This document shows, piece after piece, positions 1,205 through 8,374 of a stretch of 8,374 nt of DNA. Origin of the DNA: a bacterium (GTDB lineage: Bacteria > B130-G9); contig JAGHCW010000104.1 of the NCBI GenBank assembly GCA_021160245.1, positions 1 to 8,374 on the forward strand. Reading direction: 5' to 3'. How positions within the stretch are numbered: position 1 is the first letter of the stretch; every line of letters begins with the position of its first letter. The notes below the pieces were generated by a model that did no database searches, was not told the origin of the DNA, and saw only the letters and a list, made by a program, of their open reading frames with translations. The translations under genes and the position numbers were made by a program.

Positions 1205-3646
1205 TTACCCAACGACAATCGAGACAATGCGGCCTTTCACGTAGCGCTGGGTCTTGACGGTCTTGTCATCTACGTGGCGCTTCACGTTGGCGTCCCCGAA
1301 CGCAAGCTCCAGTATCTCGCCTTCTGAGACGTCACTTACGACCTCGAGCTTCGCCCTAATCTTGCCGTTGACCTGCACGGGCACAACGATCATCTTCGCC
1401 TTCGTCAGCGCCTCGTCAAACTCTGGGAAGCTCGCGTCAAAAACGCTTTTCTCATGCCCAAGTTGCTCCCAGAGCTCCTCCGATAGATGAGGCGCGAGTG
1501 GGGCGAGTAGTTTGATGAGGGCCTCGACCGCATCGCGATTCTTGTGCGCGTCGGATTTTGCGAGCGCAGTTTGCAGCTCCATGAGAGCGGATAGAGCCGT
1601 GTTGAAGTGGTAATGCTCAAAGTCATGGCGCACGCGTTTTATCGTAGTGTGCAGAGCGTGCAGATCGTCATCTGAGAGTTGCGGCTGCTTCCGCTCGCCC
1701 TGATAGCTCTTGATGTGTTTCTGGATGAGATTGAAAACCTTCTGCAGAAAGCGCGATATGCCGATGAGTCCGCCCTCAGACCACTCGCCGCCCTCGCGGA
1801 ATGGCCCCATGAAGAAGAGGGAGAGCCGTAGAACGTCGGCGCCATGCTGCTTTATTGTGGCGTCAGGATTGACTATATTGCCAAGTGATTTGCTCATCCT
1901 CTTGCCGCCGAGGTTGATGTCGCCCTGGTGACGAAGGCGAAGCGCCGGCTCGTCAAAAGGTAGATGGCCCAAATCGTGAAGGACTTTCGTTATGAATCGG
2001 AAGAATAGGAGATGCCCAACGGTATGCTCCGGCCCTCCGGTGTATTGATCGATGGGCAGCCAACGCCTCGTTAGGTCAGGATCGAACGGATGCGCATCGT
2101 CATGCGCGGAGGGATATCTCAGGTGATACCAAGACGAGCAGACGAACGTGTCCATTGTATCCGGCTCGCGCGTCGCCTCACCTCCGCACTTGGGGCAAGT
2201 CGCTCGCATAAACTCCGGCGAGCGGATAAGAGGAGACCTACCCGAACCGTCCGGCTCAAAGTTCGCCTCAATCGGCAGTTTGACCGGCAGATCGCTTTCT
2301 GGGACGGGGACCTCGCCACATTTGTCGCAGTAGATGATCGGAATCGGCGCGCCCCAGTAGCGCTGCCTGGAGAGAAGCCAATCTCGCAATCGGTATTGAA
2401 TCCTGAACTTGCCCAGGCCTTTGGAGGACAGCTCCTCAATGATTGCTTTCTTGAACTCATCGGAGGCCATTCCGTCGTTGTCACCGGAATTGACCATCGT
2501 TCCCTCGCCAGTATAGGCCTCATCGAATGGCGCTCCTGGTTCCTTCCCAGGCGCCAGGACGACCTCGCGAATCGGCAGGCTAAATTTCGTGGCGAACTTA
2601 AAGTCGCGCGTGTCGTGCGCGGGAACGCTCATAACTGCCCCAGAGCCGTAAGAGGCGAGGACGTAATCCGCAGTCCAGATCGGTATCCGGGCGCCATTTA
2701 CGGGATTGATGGCGTGGCTCCCCAGAAAAACGCCCGTCTTCTCCTTGTCGAGATGGACTCGCTCCAGCTCGCTCTTCCTCGCCGCCTGCTTGATGTATCC
2801 CTCGACATCAGCCCTCTGATCGGGGGTTGTAAGCGTATGAATGTCAGGATGTTCAGGCGCCAAGACCATGTAGGTTGCGCCAAAAAGCGTGTCCGGCCTT
2901 GTCGTGAAGACGGTTATCTTGATGTCGCTGTCGGCCAGATCAAACGTAACGTCCGCGCCCTCGCTACGACCGATCCAGTTTCGCTGCATAAGCTTCGTCG
3001 TGTCGGGCCAATCGACTTTATCGAGGTCGTCAATCAACCTCTGCGCGTAGTCCGTTATCGCAAAGAACCATTGGAGCATGTTCCTTTTGACGACAACGGA
3101 GCCGCATCGCTCGCACTCTCCGCCGACGACCTGTTCGTTAGCAAGCACGGTCATGCAGGAATCGCACCAATTGACGGGCGAATCCTTGCGATAGGCAAGT
3201 CCTTTCTTGTAGAGCTGCAGGAATAGCCACTGCGTCCATCGGTAGTACTCGGGCGTCGAGGTGTTGATCTCCTTCGTCCAGTCGAACATCGTGCCCAACA
3301 TGCGGAGCTGCTTCTTGATGAATTCAACGTTATCATGCGTCGAGACAGATGGATGGACACCGTGCTTGATTGCGAAATTCTCAGCTGGAAGGCCAAACGC
3401 GTCGTAGCCCATCGGCTGGAAGACGTTGTAGCCGCACATCCGCTTGAAGCGGCCGTAAGTGTCGCAGCCGGAATAGCAGTAAGCGTGGCCCATGTGCATC
3501 TTGGCGCCTGATGGATAGATGAACATCGCTAGGTTATAGAATTTGGGCTTCTCCGACCGCAAATCCGTCTCGTAAAGCCCCGATTTAGCCCATCGAGCCC
3601 GCCATTTCTTCTCAATCTTAACCTGGTCGTATTCATTCTCTTTCAT
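1205..3646 (-). CDS. leuS: Leucyl-tRNA synthetase
   Basis: This cytosolic class I aminoacyl-tRNA synthetase charges tRNA-Leu with leucine using ATP. The 813 residues are full length for a bacterial LeuRS. The HIGH signature appears as HMGH (51-54), after YPSGAKM; the KMSKS loop appears as RMSKS (583-587), after LGGK. The CP1 editing domain is recognisable from TTRPDTLFG (248-256) to GSGAVMSVPAHD (334-345), whose final Asp345 matches the conserved editing aspartate. Two four-cysteine clusters, C161/C164/C178/C181 and C440/C443/C484/C487, look like zinc-binding knuckles. The GGPEHTVGHLLFFRF segment (537-551) is typical of LeuRS, and the C-terminal domain holds VQVNGKIRAK. The ATG at 3646 gives the standard N-terminus. 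The gene starts only 3 bp after the stop codon of a methyltransferase remnant, so its promoter must lie inside or beyond that remnant. Its ribosome site is weak. No T-box-like leader can be accommodated immediately upstream. Confidence 0.98.
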   Translation of the reverse strand: MKENEYDQVKIEKKWRARWAKSGLYETDLRSEKPKFYNLAMFIYPSGAKMHMGHAYCYSGCDTYGRFKRMCGYNVFQPMGYDAFGLPAENFAIKHGVHPSVSTHDNVEFIKKQLRMLGTMFDWTKEINTSTPEYYRWTQWLFLQLYKKGLAYRKDSPVNWCDSCMTVLANEQVVGGECERCGSVVVKRNMLQWFFAITDYAQRLIDDLDKVDWPDTTKLMQRNWIGRSEGADVTFDLADSDIKITVFTTRPDTLFGATYMVLAPEHPDIHTLTTPDQRADVEGYIKQAARKSELERVHLDKEKTGVFLGSHAINPVNGARIPIWTADYVLASYGSGAVMSVPAHDTRDFKFATKFSLPIREVVLAPGKEPGAPFDEAYTGEGTMVNSGDNDGMASDEFKKAIIEELSSKGLGKFRIQYRLRDWLLSRQRYWGAPIPIIYCDKCGEVPVPESDLPVKLPIEANFEPDGSGRSPLIRSPEFMRATCPKCGGEATREPDTMDTFVCSSWYHLRYPSAHDDAHPFDPDLTRRWLPIDQYTGGPEHTVGHLLFFRFITKVLHDLGHLPFDEPALRLRHQGDINLGGKRMSKSLGNIVNPDATIKQHGADVLRLSLFFMGPFREGGEWSEGGLIGISRFLQKVFNLIQKHIKSYQGERKQPQLSDDDLHALHTTIKRVRHDFEHYHFNTALSALMELQTALAKSDAHKNRDAVEALIKLLAPLAPHLSEELWEQLGHEKSVFDASFPEFDEALTKAKMIVVPVQVNGKIRAKLEVVSDVSEGEILELAFGDANVKRHVDDKTVKTQRYVKGRIVSIVVG

Positions 3647-3649
3647 AGT

Positions 3650-3826
3650 CTATCCGTTGACCTCAAATACTCTCATCACCTCATCACCATAGTGATTGAT
3701 GACTTTCACCGCAATTTTGCCACTTTCAGGAGCGGCGAATGGGCGGCTTTCGGTTGCATATAACGCCGACCACGCCTCCTCGTCTATATCCGCCTTCAGC
3801 GCCCGCTTGAGTTTATTGTATCGAAT
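3650..3826 (-). pseudogene. C-terminal remnant of a type III-like (Mod) adenine DNA methyltransferase
   Basis: On the minus strand, between the DUF262 gene and leuS, a frame runs 58 codons from just after a TGA (3827-3829) to a TAG (3650-3652) and has no ATG near its start. Its translation includes YNKLKRALKADIDEEAW, ESRPFAAP, and GKIAVKVINHYGDEVMRV, ending FEVNG. I recognise this as the conserved C-terminal tail of COG2189-type site-specific adenine methyltransferases (Mod subunits); the closing INHYGDEV segment is characteristic. The SAM-binding and catalytic DPPY domains are absent, so it cannot be functional and is best read as the stub left when the rest of the gene was replaced. It begins 10 bp after the end of the DUF262 gene and stops 3 bp before leuS. 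A TACAAT (+ strand ATTGTA, 3815-3820) at its 5' end could serve as a -10 for leuS, but no good -35 accompanies it. The family call rests on memory of the motif and should be tested by a profile search. Confidence 0.65.
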
Positions 3827-3836
3827 TCAGGCCCAT

Positions 3837-5654
3837 TCATTCCCTGCTTTCCGTGCATTTGCTTTCCATCCCCCATACTTCGAATGCAAGTCTGGTCAAC
3901 ATTTTCTGACGGTTCTCAATCGCTCTTGAATCCCACTCATAGAATTGTATAAGGCCTTCTACAGCCCTATTTAGACGGCTATTCTGGCCAACATGAGGCC
4001 TTTCCACTAGAGATTCTGTGAGTAAGAAGTTGGACTGCGAATAATAGTCTCTCTTCTCCGCGTATTCTTTATTCGATGCTGAAATGTTGTGAGGCTCTTC
4101 TAATAGAGCTAGATTGCCGAGTTTGATAGCATATTCTCCATATTCATCCCGTTTGTCGAATTCACTTCTCTGTTTCTGCGATGGTGTCTGCGGCAGAATA
4201 TGCTCTACATGGACGGTCTTGGCGATATACTGCTTTAACCCAGTGCCCTTGTCCCCGTATGCTCTTCTGTCGATGTGCTCTGTGAGTTTAGCCAGAATGT
4301 ATCTCATCCGATACTGCTGAATGCGATCCTGAGCCAATTCTCTGAAAGCCAGCTCAAACCTATCTCTTCGACTATTCATATCCTGGACAAAGTTTGTCTC
4401 TACGAATGATTTAAGGTGCTGGGCGCTTTTGACATCTCGCAGCTGTCGGGCCCATCGGGCGAAGTTTCGTTCCAGCGTCTTAGTGGGTTCACGAGTGATG
4501 ATATAGCAGAATAGGAGTTTTTCGATCGCCTCACATAGCGGTCCGAACAAGTCTGGCGGCAGTTTCCTGCCCGCCATCAGCAGTATAAACTGCTGTCGAA
4601 GAGCCCCTCCGAGTAATGAGAGATCGTACAAATGCTGATTCCATTCTCCCCAAGCGTCTCTCTGGGACAGGAAGTTTGCATGGGCAGCGGCGCATTCGAT
4701 TAGTCGGTCAACGAATCCCAAAGGGTCGCTATCGATCCCACATCGGTTTGAATTCCTCGTAAACCACTCATGTATCTCATCCTCGCGAATGCCCCGACGC
4801 GAGTCAATCTCGTGATGAGCCATAATGAAATAACGCAGAAACCTAAGGGGCTTCTCTTTGCAGCTATCAAGTCTGTCAACCAGAGTTTTCCATCTATCTT
4901 TCAGCTTAGGATAGTCCTTACTCTCGACTTTCATAAACAGCATGTTTTTCAGAAGGTCCATTGCATTCAAACCCACGCCCCGGTCATTAATCGTCTCAAA
5001 GACCTTAAGTGCATTTGCTATGGTGGGCGTGACAATGCGTATCAATTTGACTCTTGTAGTAAGCACACCATGAAATTGTCGAAGTCGTTGTCCATCCGTA
5101 TCCAGGAAATCATGGAGAAAGATGGATACGCTTTGATAGGCCGATTTGATATTCCTGACGGATGCGGTCGTATCGGGGATATCGTCAACAGGGCAAGCTC
5201 CGGCAGCAATGCGCTCCAAAACTCCCTCGCTATCTTCATATTGAAGCGTAATCCTATATCTCTCGACCACCTCAAATGTCCTAGGATCGATCGCTGCGTC
5301 TGAGATCATAGCGTTAAGAACCTTATTCTGTTTCTTGCAGATTCTGTCAAGGGCGTCCCTTATTGCGCATAGAACCAAATAAAGAGTTGTCATGCGCTGT
5401 TGACCATCAATGAGCTGATAAGTTCCATCCGGGGCCTGACAAGCGACGACGCTGCCTAGAAAGTACTCTGCGCCAGGAATTATGTTCCCAGCCTCATCAT
5501 AGAACTCGTCATACACGTCCTGGAGCAGCCTTTCCACTTGCTCTTGTTGCCAGACATACTCTCTCTGGAAGTCTGGGACCGAGAAAAAGTCCTTAAAAAG
5601 GTCCCCGACGGAAAGATCTCTAGACTCGATTTTTATGTTATTTAGATCATTCAA
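3837..5654 (-). CDS. DUF262-DUF1524 (GmrSD-like) nuclease, candidate type IV restriction enzyme
   Basis: This 605-residue protein has the two domains of the GmrS/GmrD fusion family. The N-terminal DUF262 domain (about 10-260, ParB-like fold) shows FSVPDFQREYVW (24-35), FLGSVV (65-70) and the signature DGQQR (83-87), followed by a FETINDRG...DLLKN segment. The C-terminal DUF1524 domain (about 480-545) is a His-Me (HNH-like) nuclease. It has VEHILPQ with His485, LGNLAL (512-517) and N523 with SNKEY...K. Characterised members cut phage DNA bearing modified bases and use nucleotide hydrolysis through DUF262; whether this one senses hydroxymethyl/glucosyl cytosine, phosphorothioate or something else cannot be told. 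The start is TTG at 5654: no in-frame ATG lies nearby, the TTG overlaps the TGA stop of the preceding 54-codon ORF (TTGA), and the frame is closed by a TGA a few codons upstream. It is flanked by stubs of restriction-modification genes on both sides, which supports a defence role. No frameshift or missing signature is visible, so it appears intact. Confidence 0.88.
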   Translation of the reverse strand: MNDLNNIKIESRDLSVGDLFKDFFSVPDFQREYVWQQEQVERLLQDVYDEFYDEAGNIIPGAEYFLGSVVACQAPDGTYQLIDGQQRMTTLYLVLCAIRDALDRICKKQNKVLNAMISDAAIDPRTFEVVERYRITLQYEDSEGVLERIAAGACPVDDIPDTTASVRNIKSAYQSVSIFLHDFLDTDGQRLRQFHGVLTTRVKLIRIVTPTIANALKVFETINDRGVGLNAMDLLKNMLFMKVESKDYPKLKDRWKTLVDRLDSCKEKPLRFLRYFIMAHHEIDSRRGIREDEIHEWFTRNSNRCGIDSDPLGFVDRLIECAAAHANFLSQRDAWGEWNQHLYDLSLLGGALRQQFILLMAGRKLPPDLFGPLCEAIEKLLFCYIITREPTKTLERNFARWARQLRDVKSAQHLKSFVETNFVQDMNSRRDRFELAFRELAQDRIQQYRMRYILAKLTEHIDRRAYGDKGTGLKQYIAKTVHVEHILPQTPSQKQRSEFDKRDEYGEYAIKLGNLALLEEPHNISASNKEYAEKRDYYSQSNFLLTESLVERPHVGQNSRLNRAVEGLIQFYEWDSRAIENRQKMLTRLAFEVWGMESKCTESRE

Positions 5655-5815
5655 GACGAGGCCTCCACATCTTCAAAGAGCTTTCGCAGATCGTCCTCAA
5701 TCTGCATCTCAACCGCAAGCGTCTCCCGAATCGGTTCCAAGGGCTCCCAACCAGCCTGTCTCAGCAGGTCATCATAGATGATCCTGGCATCCGCCTCGGT
5801 CGAATAGTCCTTCAC
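5651..5815 (-). CDS. Small 54-residue protein translationally coupled to the DUF262 nuclease
   Basis: A GTG at 5815-5813 opens a 54-codon frame ending in TGA at 5653-5651. A very strong Shine-Dalgarno, AAGGAGG at 5829-5823, stands 7 bases before the GTG, and the stop codon overlaps the TTG start of the DUF262 gene in the arrangement TTGA. Both facts argue that it is translated and coupled to the nuclease. The product is acidic and helical-looking, with EADARIIYDDLLRQAGW at residues 7-23 and an acidic end (IEDDLRKLFEDVEASS, 39-54). The first part resembles the short N-terminal helix (EA-x-R...LL..AGW) of type I/III restriction subunits, but the similarity is too short to infer descent. It could be a dedicated partner or regulator of the nuclease, or a leader peptide whose translation opens the nuclease start. 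It has no recognised domain. Confidence 0.7.
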   Translation of the reverse strand: MKDYSTEADARIIYDDLLRQAGWEPLEPIRETLAVEMQIEDDLRKLFEDVEASS

Positions 5816-5822
5816 AGTCGGT

Positions 5823-5829
5823 CCTCCTT
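5823..5829 (-). promoter_or_regulatory. Shine-Dalgarno of the 54-residue ORF
   Basis: The minus strand reads AAGGAGG here, complementary to the 16S 3' end over all seven bases, with 7 bases before the GTG start. It overlaps the TAA stop (5830-5828) of the upstream remnant frame. It is the best ribosome site in the window and decides the GTG start. Through the stop/start overlap it may also set expression of the DUF262 gene. Confidence 0.75.
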
Positions 5830-6031
5830 AAAGCCCACCGGACGTCTGCCACTCGGGAAAGCGGTCCGCAAGACTCTTGTTCCTGGAATAAACTTCGCAG
5901 ACCAGACGCCCTCGGTCGATCTTGTTAGCCGTCCGGAGTTCGACTTGCTCCTTGAAGATGAGCCTCCACAATTTGTCATTAGCTGCTTTGAGCCTCGTTT
6001 TCGCGGCTTGGCGATTGGGACCAAGTAGGAG
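5828..6031 (-). pseudogene. C-terminal remnant of an unidentified gene upstream of the DUF262 module
   Basis: This frame opens after a TAG (6034-6032) and runs 67 codons to TAA (5830-5828). It has no obvious start codon with a ribosome site, yet its second half looks like real protein: LKAANDKLWRLIFKEQ (residues 14-29), then RTANKIDRGRLVCEVYSRN (33-51) and SLADRFPEW (53-61). I do not recognise the family. It stops 12 bp before the GTG of the 54-residue ORF, the spacing of operon neighbours, so it is probably the tail of the gene that once preceded the small ORF and the DUF262 nuclease. It overlaps, in a different frame, the Res N-terminal stub; the two switch over near 5980-6001. A one-base slip or indel in the run of four A residues on the minus strand (5998-6001) would join both into one protein of about 109 residues. 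Confidence 0.5.
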
Positions 6032-6180
6032 CTAATTCGCCGTCCATCGACTATTTCGTCGGTGATACCCTCTTCGCCAAACTTGAAATGACGCGTCGGC
6101 TCATTGTAAGGCGAATTGATAATCGGATTCTCGATTGTGATATCTGTCATTCGCATCGTCGCCTATGCACATTCGGACAC

Positions 6181-6240
6181 AAGGGATTCAGTTCAAGAAC
6201 ACAGGATGCCTGGGGGATACAGGTTCTTGAATCGCCCTTT
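6181..6240. repeat. Imperfect palindrome with a 9-bp perfect core stem
   Basis: TTCAAGAAC (6192-6200) and GTTCTTGAA (6223-6231) form a perfect stem around a 22-base loop. The symmetry continues imperfectly outward, with AAGGG at 6181 facing CCCTT at 6235-6239. The loop itself contains a smaller palindrome, CAGG/CCTG (6203-6212). It lies in the non-coding gap between the BMC operon and the Res remnant. It may be a terminator, a REP-like intergenic repeat or an operator; no U-run follows on either strand to make it a classical terminator. Confidence 0.55.
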
Positions 6241-6260
6241 CTGTGAGCCGACGCGGTTAG

Positions 6261-6284
6261 TTACCCCATGTGTATATGGGGTAA
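6261..6284. repeat. Perfect 9-bp inverted repeat downstream of the BMC operon
   Basis: TTACCCCAT (6261-6269) and ATGGGGTAA (6276-6284) are exact inverse complements separated by GTGTAT. It lies 34 bp beyond the stop codon of the minus-strand BMC shell gene, where a terminator for the aldolase-BMC transcript would be expected, and the stem is strong. No T-run follows on either strand, so it may instead act as an mRNA 3'-end stabiliser or a protein-binding site. The sequence evidence for the repeat is certain; its role is not. Confidence 0.6.
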
Positions 6285-6318
6285 ACGCCAGTGTCATCCA
6301 GACACCACGTCTGATAAA

Positions 6319-6615
6319 TTATTTCTTAGGAGCGGTCGTCTTGCCGATGGGCAGAACGTCCTCCAGGCTCGTGTGAGGCCTCGGGATAACGTGAACCGCA
6401 ACCAGCTCGCCAACACGCTTCGCCGCCTCGGCCCCGGCGTCAGTCGCGGCCTTTACAGCAGCAACGTCCCCGCGAACAAGCGCCGTAACATAGCCGCCAC
6501 CGATCTTCTCATACGTAACCAGCTTAACGTTGGCCGCCTTAACCATCGCATCCGACGCCTCGATCATAGCCACAAGGCCCTTAGTCTCTATCATTCCAAG
6601 CGCTTCACCATACAT
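6319..6615 (-). CDS. Bacterial microcompartment shell protein, single-domain hexameric BMC-H (PduA/EutM/CcmK type)
   Basis: This 98-residue protein is the standard hexagonal tile of a bacterial microcompartment shell. The BMC fold is visible from start to end: [18 protein letters not shown] (5-22), Lys26 at the position of the hexamer-edge lysine, [14 protein letters not shown] (37-50) and VHVIPRPH (74-81), with Arg79 matching the conserved inter-hexamer arginine. The pore loop K37-I38-G39-G40-G41 has glycine where PduA has serine at 40, predicting an open, uncharged pore. The ATG at 6615 gives the usual short N-terminus; the ribosome site is weak (GAGAG). It starts 54 bp after the class II aldolase stop on the same strand, so the two are almost certainly co-transcribed. 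Only one shell gene is in the window. A closed compartment also needs pentamers (BMC-P) and usually trimers, which must be elsewhere. Confidence 0.95.
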
Positions 6616-6669
6616 CGTCTCTCACTGCTCCCACTTATGATCAAGCAAAATGCTCATTATGAACAACAA

Positions 6670-7539
6670 CTATATCTCAGCAAATTCTCGCTTAATGGCC
6701 GCCAAAACTTCCGCTACAAGCTCGCCTGAAACGTCCCCCTTGACCGACGATCCTGTTATCGAGGCCGAAGACCCTTGCGGGCTAGCAGAATCGGAGCCCA
6801 AGCCGCACGAAGCCGAACCATCCGGGCCAATCTTACACGCAACGGTTGGCATCTTCGCGCCCGCCTCTCTCTGAACCTCGGAGATACGCTCAATATCATT
6901 CGCAGTCAATAGCTTTTCACCGCCCAACAGCCTCGCAACCAGCGAGATATTGGCGAAGTGCTCAATTCGCTCCATTGTATAATGCGCCTCAAACACATCT
7001 TTGCCCACACTAACCGCCCCGTGATTCGCAAGGAGTACGGCATTGCAGTCTTTCATTTTGGCGGCGACCGCCTCCGCAAGCTCATCGGTCGAAGGAGGCG
7101 CGAATTCTGCGATTGGGATGACGCCTAGTGTCATGACGACCTCTGCGAGCACGCATTTGTCCAGCGGGATGCCAGCGACGGCGAAACCCGTGCATATTGG
7201 CGGATGAGCGTGATCGATGGCCAAAACGTCAGGTCTGGTTTTATATATTGCGAGGTGCATCAGAATCTCGGAAGACGGCCTAAGCGGACCTTCGAGCTTC
7301 TCGCCCGCGAGGTTTATCTTGACCAGTTCATCCTCTCGAATAAAGCCCTTGCTCCGACCGGTTGGCGTCGCCAAGATAATATCGTCGCCTATTCGAGCGC
7401 TGATGTTGCCATCGTTCGCCGCCACAAAGCCCCTAGCGAATGTCCGACGGCCGACCTCGACAATGGCCGCTCTAGCAAGCGATTCCGGCAGATATTTGCC
7501 GAAATACTCCCCAACCATCGATTCTATTGCTTCCTGCAT
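6670..7539 (-). CDS. Class II aldolase (fuculose/rhamnulose-phosphate aldolase-like) with probable encapsulation tail
   Basis: The 289-residue protein belongs to the zinc-dependent class II aldolase/adducin family. By analogy with FucA it would split a sugar-1-phosphate such as L-fuculose-1-phosphate to dihydroxyacetone phosphate and lactaldehyde. Expected active-site parts are present: GNIS (44-47) and TPTGRSKG (58-65) for phosphate binding, PSSE with catalytic Glu91, zinc ligands His110 and His112 in DHAHPP, and His173 in ANHG. The enzyme domain ends near 230. It is followed by a Ser/Gly/Ala-rich linker (about 238-268) and a short amphipathic C-terminal helix (SGELVAEVLAAIKREFAEI, 271-289). 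Ordinary FucA (about 215 residues) lacks this, and it looks like a microcompartment encapsulation peptide. The BMC-H gene follows in the same operon, supporting enclosure of the toxic aldehyde product. ATG 7539 is preceded by GGGAGCGGAG. The exact substrate cannot be fixed. Confidence 0.9.
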   Translation of the reverse strand: MQEAIESMVGEYFGKYLPESLARAAIVEVGRRTFARGFVAANDGNISARIGDDIILATPTGRSKGFIREDELVKINLAGEKLEGPLRPSSEILMHLAIYKTRPDVLAIDHAHPPICTGFAVAGIPLDKCVLAEVVMTLGVIPIAEFAPPSTDELAEAVAAKMKDCNAVLLANHGAVSVGKDVFEAHYTMERIEHFANISLVARLLGGEKLLTANDIERISEVQREAGAKMPTVACKIGPDGSASCGLGSDSASPQGSSASITGSSVKGDVSGELVAEVLAAIKREFAEI

Positions 7540-7584
7540 ACTCCGCTCCCTTTCAAAGCGACCTCAAGCCGAAGTCAATATGCG

Positions 7585-7614
7585 AATCTACATAGAAAGC
7601 CCCCCAGCTGTCAA
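7585..7614 (-). promoter_or_regulatory. Candidate sigma-70 promoter of the aldolase-BMC operon
   Basis: The minus strand has a perfect -35 TTGACA (7614-7609) and, after 18 bases, a -10-like TAGATT (7590-7585, four of six matches). Transcription would start near 7578, leaving a leader of about 40 bases before the aldolase ATG at 7539. The position suits the operon. The -10 is weak, which would fit a regulated promoter. A small inverted repeat AATCCC/GGGATT (7626-7645) lies just upstream. Confidence 0.4.
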
Positions 7615-7712
7615 GGAAGCGTGAAAATCCCCTGAGAATGGGATTGAGTCAGAAATCGAGTATGAAGATCGAGCAATCCATTGGGCAAGATAAGTTGTCT
7701 AAATGAAGCTAC

Positions 7713-7741
7713 TTGAAACATACTCCGTTCCTATATATATT
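7713..7741 (+). promoter_or_regulatory. Strong candidate sigma-70 promoter facing the IS element
   Basis: TTGAAA (7713-7718) and TATATT (7736-7741) are each five of six matches to consensus and are spaced exactly 17 bases apart, in an A+T-rich stretch. Transcription would begin near 7748 and run rightward into the insertion sequence. It lies outside the apparent left end of the IS, so it is probably a host promoter, perhaps of a gene that the IS interrupted. Confidence 0.45.
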
Positions 7742-7806
7742 AGGGGAGCATTCACAGATAATAGCTGTAGAATGAGCTCACCCCAAAAGGTGTGTAAATT
7801 AGGTTA

Positions 7807-7867
7807 GGCGGTGTTTACCTTAGTTGTGCAAGAAAGACAGTTAAGGTGAAGAAAGGATAACACCGCC
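7807..7867 (+). promoter_or_regulatory. Long inverted repeat enclosing the transposase ribosome-binding site
   Basis: GGCGGTGTT (7807-7815) is the exact inverse complement of AACACCGCC (7859-7867), which abuts the ATG at 7868. Inside it, ACCTTA (7817-7822) pairs with TAAGGT (7842-7847). The Shine-Dalgarno-like GAAAGGA (7851-7857) falls in the bulge between the two stems. A transcript containing both arms would fold the translation start into a stem-loop. Comparable structures in IS10 and IS50 limit transposase translation from outside transcripts; the same role is inferred here. Confidence 0.55.
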
Positions 7868-8374
7868 ATGAGCAAGAAGAGCACAGAGAATGATAGAGAG
7901 TCAAGCCCGTGTTGGGATGGTCTTGAGGCGTGGATTCGGGGCCAGATTCAAAGATGTTTTCAGGACGTGTTGGAAGAGGAAGTGACAGAATTTCTAGGCA
8001 GGTCAAGATACGAGCGGCGGGACGCTATCGATGCGTCCTTAGGCAGCCGCAATGGCTACGGTAAGCCTCGGAATGTAACGTTGAGTTGCGGGACTATAAC
8101 GGTTCGTCGTCCACGAGTTCGGGAGGTTGAGGAGCGTTTCGAGAGCCGTCTTTTGCCGTTTTTTCAGCGTCGCACGAAAGAAGTGAACGAGTTGATACCC
8201 GAGCTGTACTTGCACGGTCTTGCCGAGGGCGATTTCGACCTAGCACTTCGGGGCCTCTTGGGTGCCGATGCGCCGATCTCGGCCTCGACCGTTGCGCGTC
8301 TGAAGACGAAATGGCAGGCGGAGTTTCGGGAATGGTCCTCGCGTCCGCTGGATGACCTTGAGGTGGTGTATCTC
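7868..8374 (+). CDS. IS256-family (Mutator-type) transposase, N-terminal part, truncated by the window end
   Basis: An open frame of 169 codons runs from ATG 7868 to the last base. The N-terminal region shows the IS256 pattern. It has EEEVTEFLGRSRYERRD (38-54), then a NGYGKPRNV stretch with conserved basic residues, TVRRPRVRE, the RRTKEVNELIPELYLHGLAE helix and ISASTVARL (about 139-147). The frame ends SRPLDDLEVVYL, just before the segment where the first catalytic Asp of the DDE triad is expected. None of the catalytic residues can therefore be judged. GAAAGGA, 10 bases upstream of the ATG, serves as ribosome site. The frame is undamaged as far as it can be read, so the element may be active. 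Confidence 0.92.
   Translation, partial: MSKKSTENDRESSPCWDGLEAWIRGQIQRCFQDVLEEEVTEFLGRSRYERRDAIDASLGSRNGYGKPRNVTLSCGTITVRRPRVREVEERFESRLLPFFQRRTKEVNELIPELYLHGLAEGDFDLALRGLLGADAPISASTVARLKTKWQAEFREWSSRPLDDLEVVYL

Follow-up and report, generated by a model that had tools for sequence, protein, structure and literature searches.

How did an intact defence gene come to lie between the severed ends of two restriction genes, beside leuS? The window analyzed here is an entire contig (C31, 8374 bp) of a 3.43-Mb genome in 244 contigs, and its minus strand reads from a class II aldolase gene through a BMC shell gene and an insert to leuS. The first-pass annotation saw in this insert a gutted type III restriction-modification locus whose core had been swapped for a DUF262 nuclease module. 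The features of the insert and its borders, in the order of the minus strand, are:

6319–6615, minus strand: BMC shell gene (PF00936), one border of the slot
5980–6156, minus strand: Res head, codons 1–59 of a BPTD_3080-family type III-like restriction helicase (NF046055)
5828–5989, minus strand: C-terminal half of a small SNase-like gene, in another frame
5735–5815, minus strand: HsdR head, 27 codons, EcoEI-type, GTG start (VKDYSTEADARIIYDDLLRQAGWEP, compared with HsdR of G027)
5651–5746, minus strand: HsdM tail of 31 codons, continuing the frame of the HsdR head
3837–5654, minus strand: intact GmrSD/DUF262 gene, 605 aa (Pfam GmrSD_N and GmrSD_C)
3650–3826, minus strand: Mod tail, last 58 codons (3826–3653) and stop (3652–3650)
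1205–3646, minus strand: leuS, the other border of the slot, with orthologues in G001, G002 and G003

The slot between the BMC shell gene and leuS

Only three genomes in the collection belong to the same family (G001, G002 and G003), and in all of them the orthologue of the BMC gene is 93–95% identical and lies beside leuS. G001 and G003 have an empty slot, with less than 200 bp between the two genes. In G002 it contains 26 codons of the Mod tail, interrupted by a stop, ending 4 nt before leuS, and the rest is filled by REP-like repeats and a REP-transposase-like ORF, both named by eye (L137, contig C388, 600–1700). A fixed chromosomal slot beside leuS had been proposed, with a comparison of the region upstream of leuS as the means to check it; with two empty slots and one that keeps Mod codons at the same place, the slot is real. 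The leuS of G002 is the closest to that of the window (82.5%, versus 76.6–79.5% for the others). Since the Mod tail is common to the window and G002, it predates the split of these two genera, which is the most likely reading of the four genomes compared by sequence. At the G002 junction, GGCAAGAT is common to the end of a repeat and the Mod tail, which suggests a junction formed at short homology.

The stubs of a type III-like locus

The Res head aligns with positions 1–54 of the 970 of the NCBIfam profile NF046055 (restr_BPTD_3080) with an E value of 1.3e-11, and a full-length Res with helicase and nuclease domains is not present. In a tblastn search of 7.3 Gb of plasmids it is 63–71% identical to annotated BPTD_3080 restriction genes (best E 5e-17), and it shares 71% identity with residues 4–52 of the Methylomagnum Res. 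Its ORF continues out of frame to 5812. Similarly, the Mod tail matches the last 54 positions (930–983 of 983) of the PADLOC MTase_III profile PDLC03632 with an E value of 2e-16, and is 74% identical both to the last part of a protein annotated as a site-specific DNA-methyltransferase (E 1e-20) and to residues 931–984 of the Methylomagnum Mod. The N6_N4_Mtase domain occupies residues 148–475 of that Mod and is absent from the stub. The stop codon of the tail lies 3 nt ahead of the leuS ATG (3646). Controls with shuffled sequences give z values of 35 for the Res head and 46 for the Mod tail, and both stubs match annotated full-length plasmid genes that are paired in many records. The first-pass annotation had named these stubs correctly, as a Res N-terminus of about 59 residues upstream and a Mod C-terminus of 58 codons downstream; the profile searches it proposed find Res and Mod homologues for them, and the two are what is left of one gutted type III-like pair.

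No second copy of either stub was found elsewhere in the genome, no Res C-terminus between the Res head and the DUF262 gene, and no match to the Mod tail in phage records. That the Mod tail might itself be a Res C-terminus was ruled out, as it matches the ends of Mod proteins only. The 174-bp spacer upstream of res was considered as a genome-wide repeat and rejected, being single copy. A promoter and terminator scan upstream of the Res head gave nothing reliable.

Gene order and cargo in related loci

The order res head first, mod tail last had been taken as a puzzle, to be explained by a res-mod ancestor or by two separate events. Gene order was compared in 77 loci from genomes and plasmids. 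All 27 order-scorable loci whose Res head matches that of the window with at least 50 bits run res to mod, and mod to res is confined to divergent relatives. The stubs lie res to mod on one strand, and the agreement of all 27 close loci argues that both come from a single ordinary locus, as its outer ends. The res-mod ancestor stands; two events are not needed, since this order is native to the clade.

The stubs span 2.5 kb, as against a median of 6.85 kb in 37 loci. Between res and mod, an interval of 0.5–3.8 kb is found in 17 of 24 same-strand res-to-mod loci, and it mostly holds cargo whose genes vary from locus to locus; HEPN-like, BRO-like, AAA, TcmP/gp37-like and other types were recognized by eye. 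Plasmid loci carry toxin-antitoxin, DUF4209 or hypothetical genes between res and mod or beside mod. In one genome, G540, a DUF262 gene (596 aa) lies between a res and a mod that are both full-size. The closest known systems to the outer part of the insert are such BPTD_3080 loci (Methylomagnum ishizawai pRS11DPr6 and G540:C11, with NF046055 Res and PDLC03632-type Mod), which share with it the Res head, the Mod tail, the order and the habit of cargo. The window, however, lacks all of res after about codon 59 and all of mod before about codon 930. No published description of the BPTD_3080 family was found in the literature searched. The res-mod interval of these loci is a rich hunting place for defence genes.

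Several other loci were noted in the comparison. Many BPTD_3080 loci (L087, L089, L092, L173, L175 and L181) have a recurring cargo of two genes in the res-mod interval, a TcmP-like gene (about 277 aa) and a phage gp37-like gene (about 250 aa), both named by eye. L100 (G227:C22, 3517–7809) combines a full-size res and a cargo gene with only a short match to Mod near the end, possibly an independent truncation of mod. The genome of the window has a second type III-like pair (L138, G000:C28, 3254–8751, minus strand) in the order mod to res; its mod is cut by the contig end, and its res (892 aa) is distant from BPTD_3080.

Remnants of a type I locus

Between the Res head and the DUF262 gene lies what is, by its alignments, a third gutted system overlooked in the first pass, left over from an EcoEI-type type I locus. 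It consists of a SNase-like tail and an hsdR'-'hsdM fusion ORF at 5651–5989, with shuffle z values of 22 for the former and 18 and 12 for the two parts of the latter. The SNase-like tail (z 22–24 against the copies in G027 and G069) ends with TAA at 5830–5828, followed by AAGGAGG in front of the next ORF. Its name comes from a weak Pfam match (E 0.012) of the G027 protein; in G027 the SNase-like gene lies directly upstream of hsdR. In the 54-codon ORF that follows (5651–5815), residues 1–27 resemble the start of HsdR, with z 18–21 against G027 HsdR and 13–17 against HsdR of contig C228 of the same genome, and residues 24–52 resemble positions 524–552 of the 554-residue C228 HsdM (z 12). The switch from one alignment to the other falls at an EP/DP step that HsdR and HsdM share. 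The TGA stop of the HsdM tail overlaps the TTG start of the DUF262 gene.

The insert thus has three joins, res to SNase-like gene near 5980–5992, hsdR to hsdM near 5740, and DUF262 to mod at 3826–3837. The closest known systems to its middle part are those of EcoEI type (hsdR-hsdM-hsdS), such as the ones on C228 and G027:C41. The order from HsdR to HsdM is the same, and the SNase-like gene precedes hsdR in G027 as it does here. The window differs in that only about 27 and 31 codons are kept, fused in frame, with no hsdS and with DUF262 directly after the hsdM tail.

The C228 locus (L139, G000, 2142–7946, plus strand) is an intact EcoEI-type hsdR-hsdM-hsdS set. Its HsdM shares 76% identity with the HsdM of G027, a distantly related genome, which suggests horizontal transfer.

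The DUF262 gene

The first reading held that the intact centre is of a different defence type, and the gene is indeed a full-length GmrSD/DUF262 with its motifs in place. GmrSD_N (3.9e-36) and GmrSD_C (6.1e-24) occur in one chain, above gathering scores. Of the DGQQR and E/D-H-N-N motifs (defined in PMC4619093), the first is at residues 83–87; the second is present as EHILPQ at 484–489 (E484-H485), followed by N514 and later Asn residues. In single-gene profile matches, the PADLOC candidate profiles Orf5 (4e-127) and HEC-06 (3e-82) cover nearly its full length; HEC-06 presumably stands for "Hma-embedded candidate", a meaning for which PMC8565338 gave no confirmation. A full-length relative from Evansella tamaricis is 44% identical, and among the relatives of solved structure are SspE and further DUF262 proteins. 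A search of a database of genome contigs gave one relative, with neighbours unrelated to those of the window, and the whole insert has no match in E. coli genomes.

This gene is the sole survivor of the locus and probably still acts as a stand-alone modification-dependent (type IV) nuclease, an activity predicted from its domains. It resembles the GmrSD/RloF type IV enzymes in being a single chain with GmrSD_N, GmrSD_C, DGQQR and E-H-N-N, and its association with type I genes is shared with RloF. It differs in that its closest relatives found are only about 40–44% identical. GmrSD/DUF262 genes most often neighbour type I RM genes, and "RloF", a DUF262 protein, is located inside type I loci (PMC4619093).

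Origin of the locus

The reading that we find the most probable, with moderate confidence, is that the type I and DUF262 genes were nested as cargo in a res-mod operon and that deletions followed, which would explain the locus without a swap. A type III-like res-mod operon of the BPTD_3080 family would have occupied the slot, with the end of mod close to the start of leuS, and would have carried between res and mod a type I cassette (SNase-like gene, hsdR and hsdM) followed by a DUF262/GmrSD gene. One deletion would then have joined res to the SNase-like gene, another hsdR in frame to hsdM, and a third the end of DUF262 to mod at about codon 930, leaving DUF262 alone intact. We infer both the arrival of these genes as cargo and the number and order of the deletions. 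Nesting is preferred because the interval holds type I ends and because the res-mod interval normally carries cargo; with cargo in a host operon and deletions, no special exchange mechanism is needed. It is a reconstruction, since no intact res-[type I and DUF262]-mod locus was found. Other points also count against it. The G+C of the DUF262 gene is 0.47 and thus below the 0.55 of the hsd remnant, a piece of just 165 bp, a hint that the two arrived separately; hsdS must have been lost or never been present; and among the few related HsdM loci examined, none had hsdM next to DUF262.

Alternatively, the res-mod core may have been lost first, and a type I/DUF262 fragment may then have landed in the scar. 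G002 gives a parallel, as it lost the core, kept the Mod tail and has a REP/RAYT-like element in the slot, and the different G+C of DUF262 fits as well. Nevertheless, all the pieces point in the same direction and 4-nt start/stop overlaps link the ORFs from Res head to DUF262 as in an operon, and intact loci hold cargo while res and mod are full-size, which makes sequential insertion unlikely. An exchange, homologous or site-specific, by which a DUF262 module replaced the res-mod core between conserved ends is similarly improbable. In its favour, an intact foreign gene is flanked by preserved outer ends of res and mod, yet the SNase-like and hsdR'-'hsdM remnants are unexpected from a clean swap of modules, cargo between res and mod is normal with DUF262 included, and the insert showed no integrase gene. 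The part of the first-pass annotation that finds no support as stated is the replacement itself, as the interval also holds gutted type I ends and its counterpart in related loci normally carries cargo, in one genome DUF262; nested cargo with deletions fits better. It is very hard to credit that the ORFs of 54 and 114 aa are functional small genes of a new compact system with DUF262: ORF 5812–6156, ORF 5651–5815 and DUF262 are connected by overlaps of the GTGA/TTGA type and have good Shine-Dalgarno-like sequences, but each residue of these ORFs can be assigned to the end of a larger gene, in part out of frame, and the fused 54-aa protein has no homologue as such in plasmids or 116 genomes.

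Under nesting and deletion, the locus represents the common decay of a defence island, with remains that are unusually easy to read, and no new kind of system. It offers a readable case of restriction systems nested in one another and then lost, down to gene ends and one survivor. It shows that a host-and-cargo reading, rather than a swap, is available where short stubs flank an intact defence gene on its own strand.

The gene ends might have been retained for a role in leading translation, in which the Mod tail would serve as the initiation region of leuS and the hsdR'-'hsdM mini-ORF would feed ribosomes into DUF262, an idea that we regard as doubtful. The Mod stop lies 3–4 nt before the leuS ATG in two genera (window and G002), and the last 25 or so nt before it are identical in both. 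This identity is not significant evidence of selection, because there are only about six differences in the 78 nt overall.

Outside the insert, the plus strand of the window at 1–1138 carries the end of an EcoRV-like endonuclease gene (PF09233, E 2.5e-12) overlapping a Dam-type methyltransferase gene, convergent with leuS. In G001 the methyltransferase gene occupies the corresponding position (70% identity) but no EcoRV-like neighbour was detected, so that it may be an orphan there. At the other end (7868–8374, plus strand) lies an IS256-family transposase gene, cut by the contig end.
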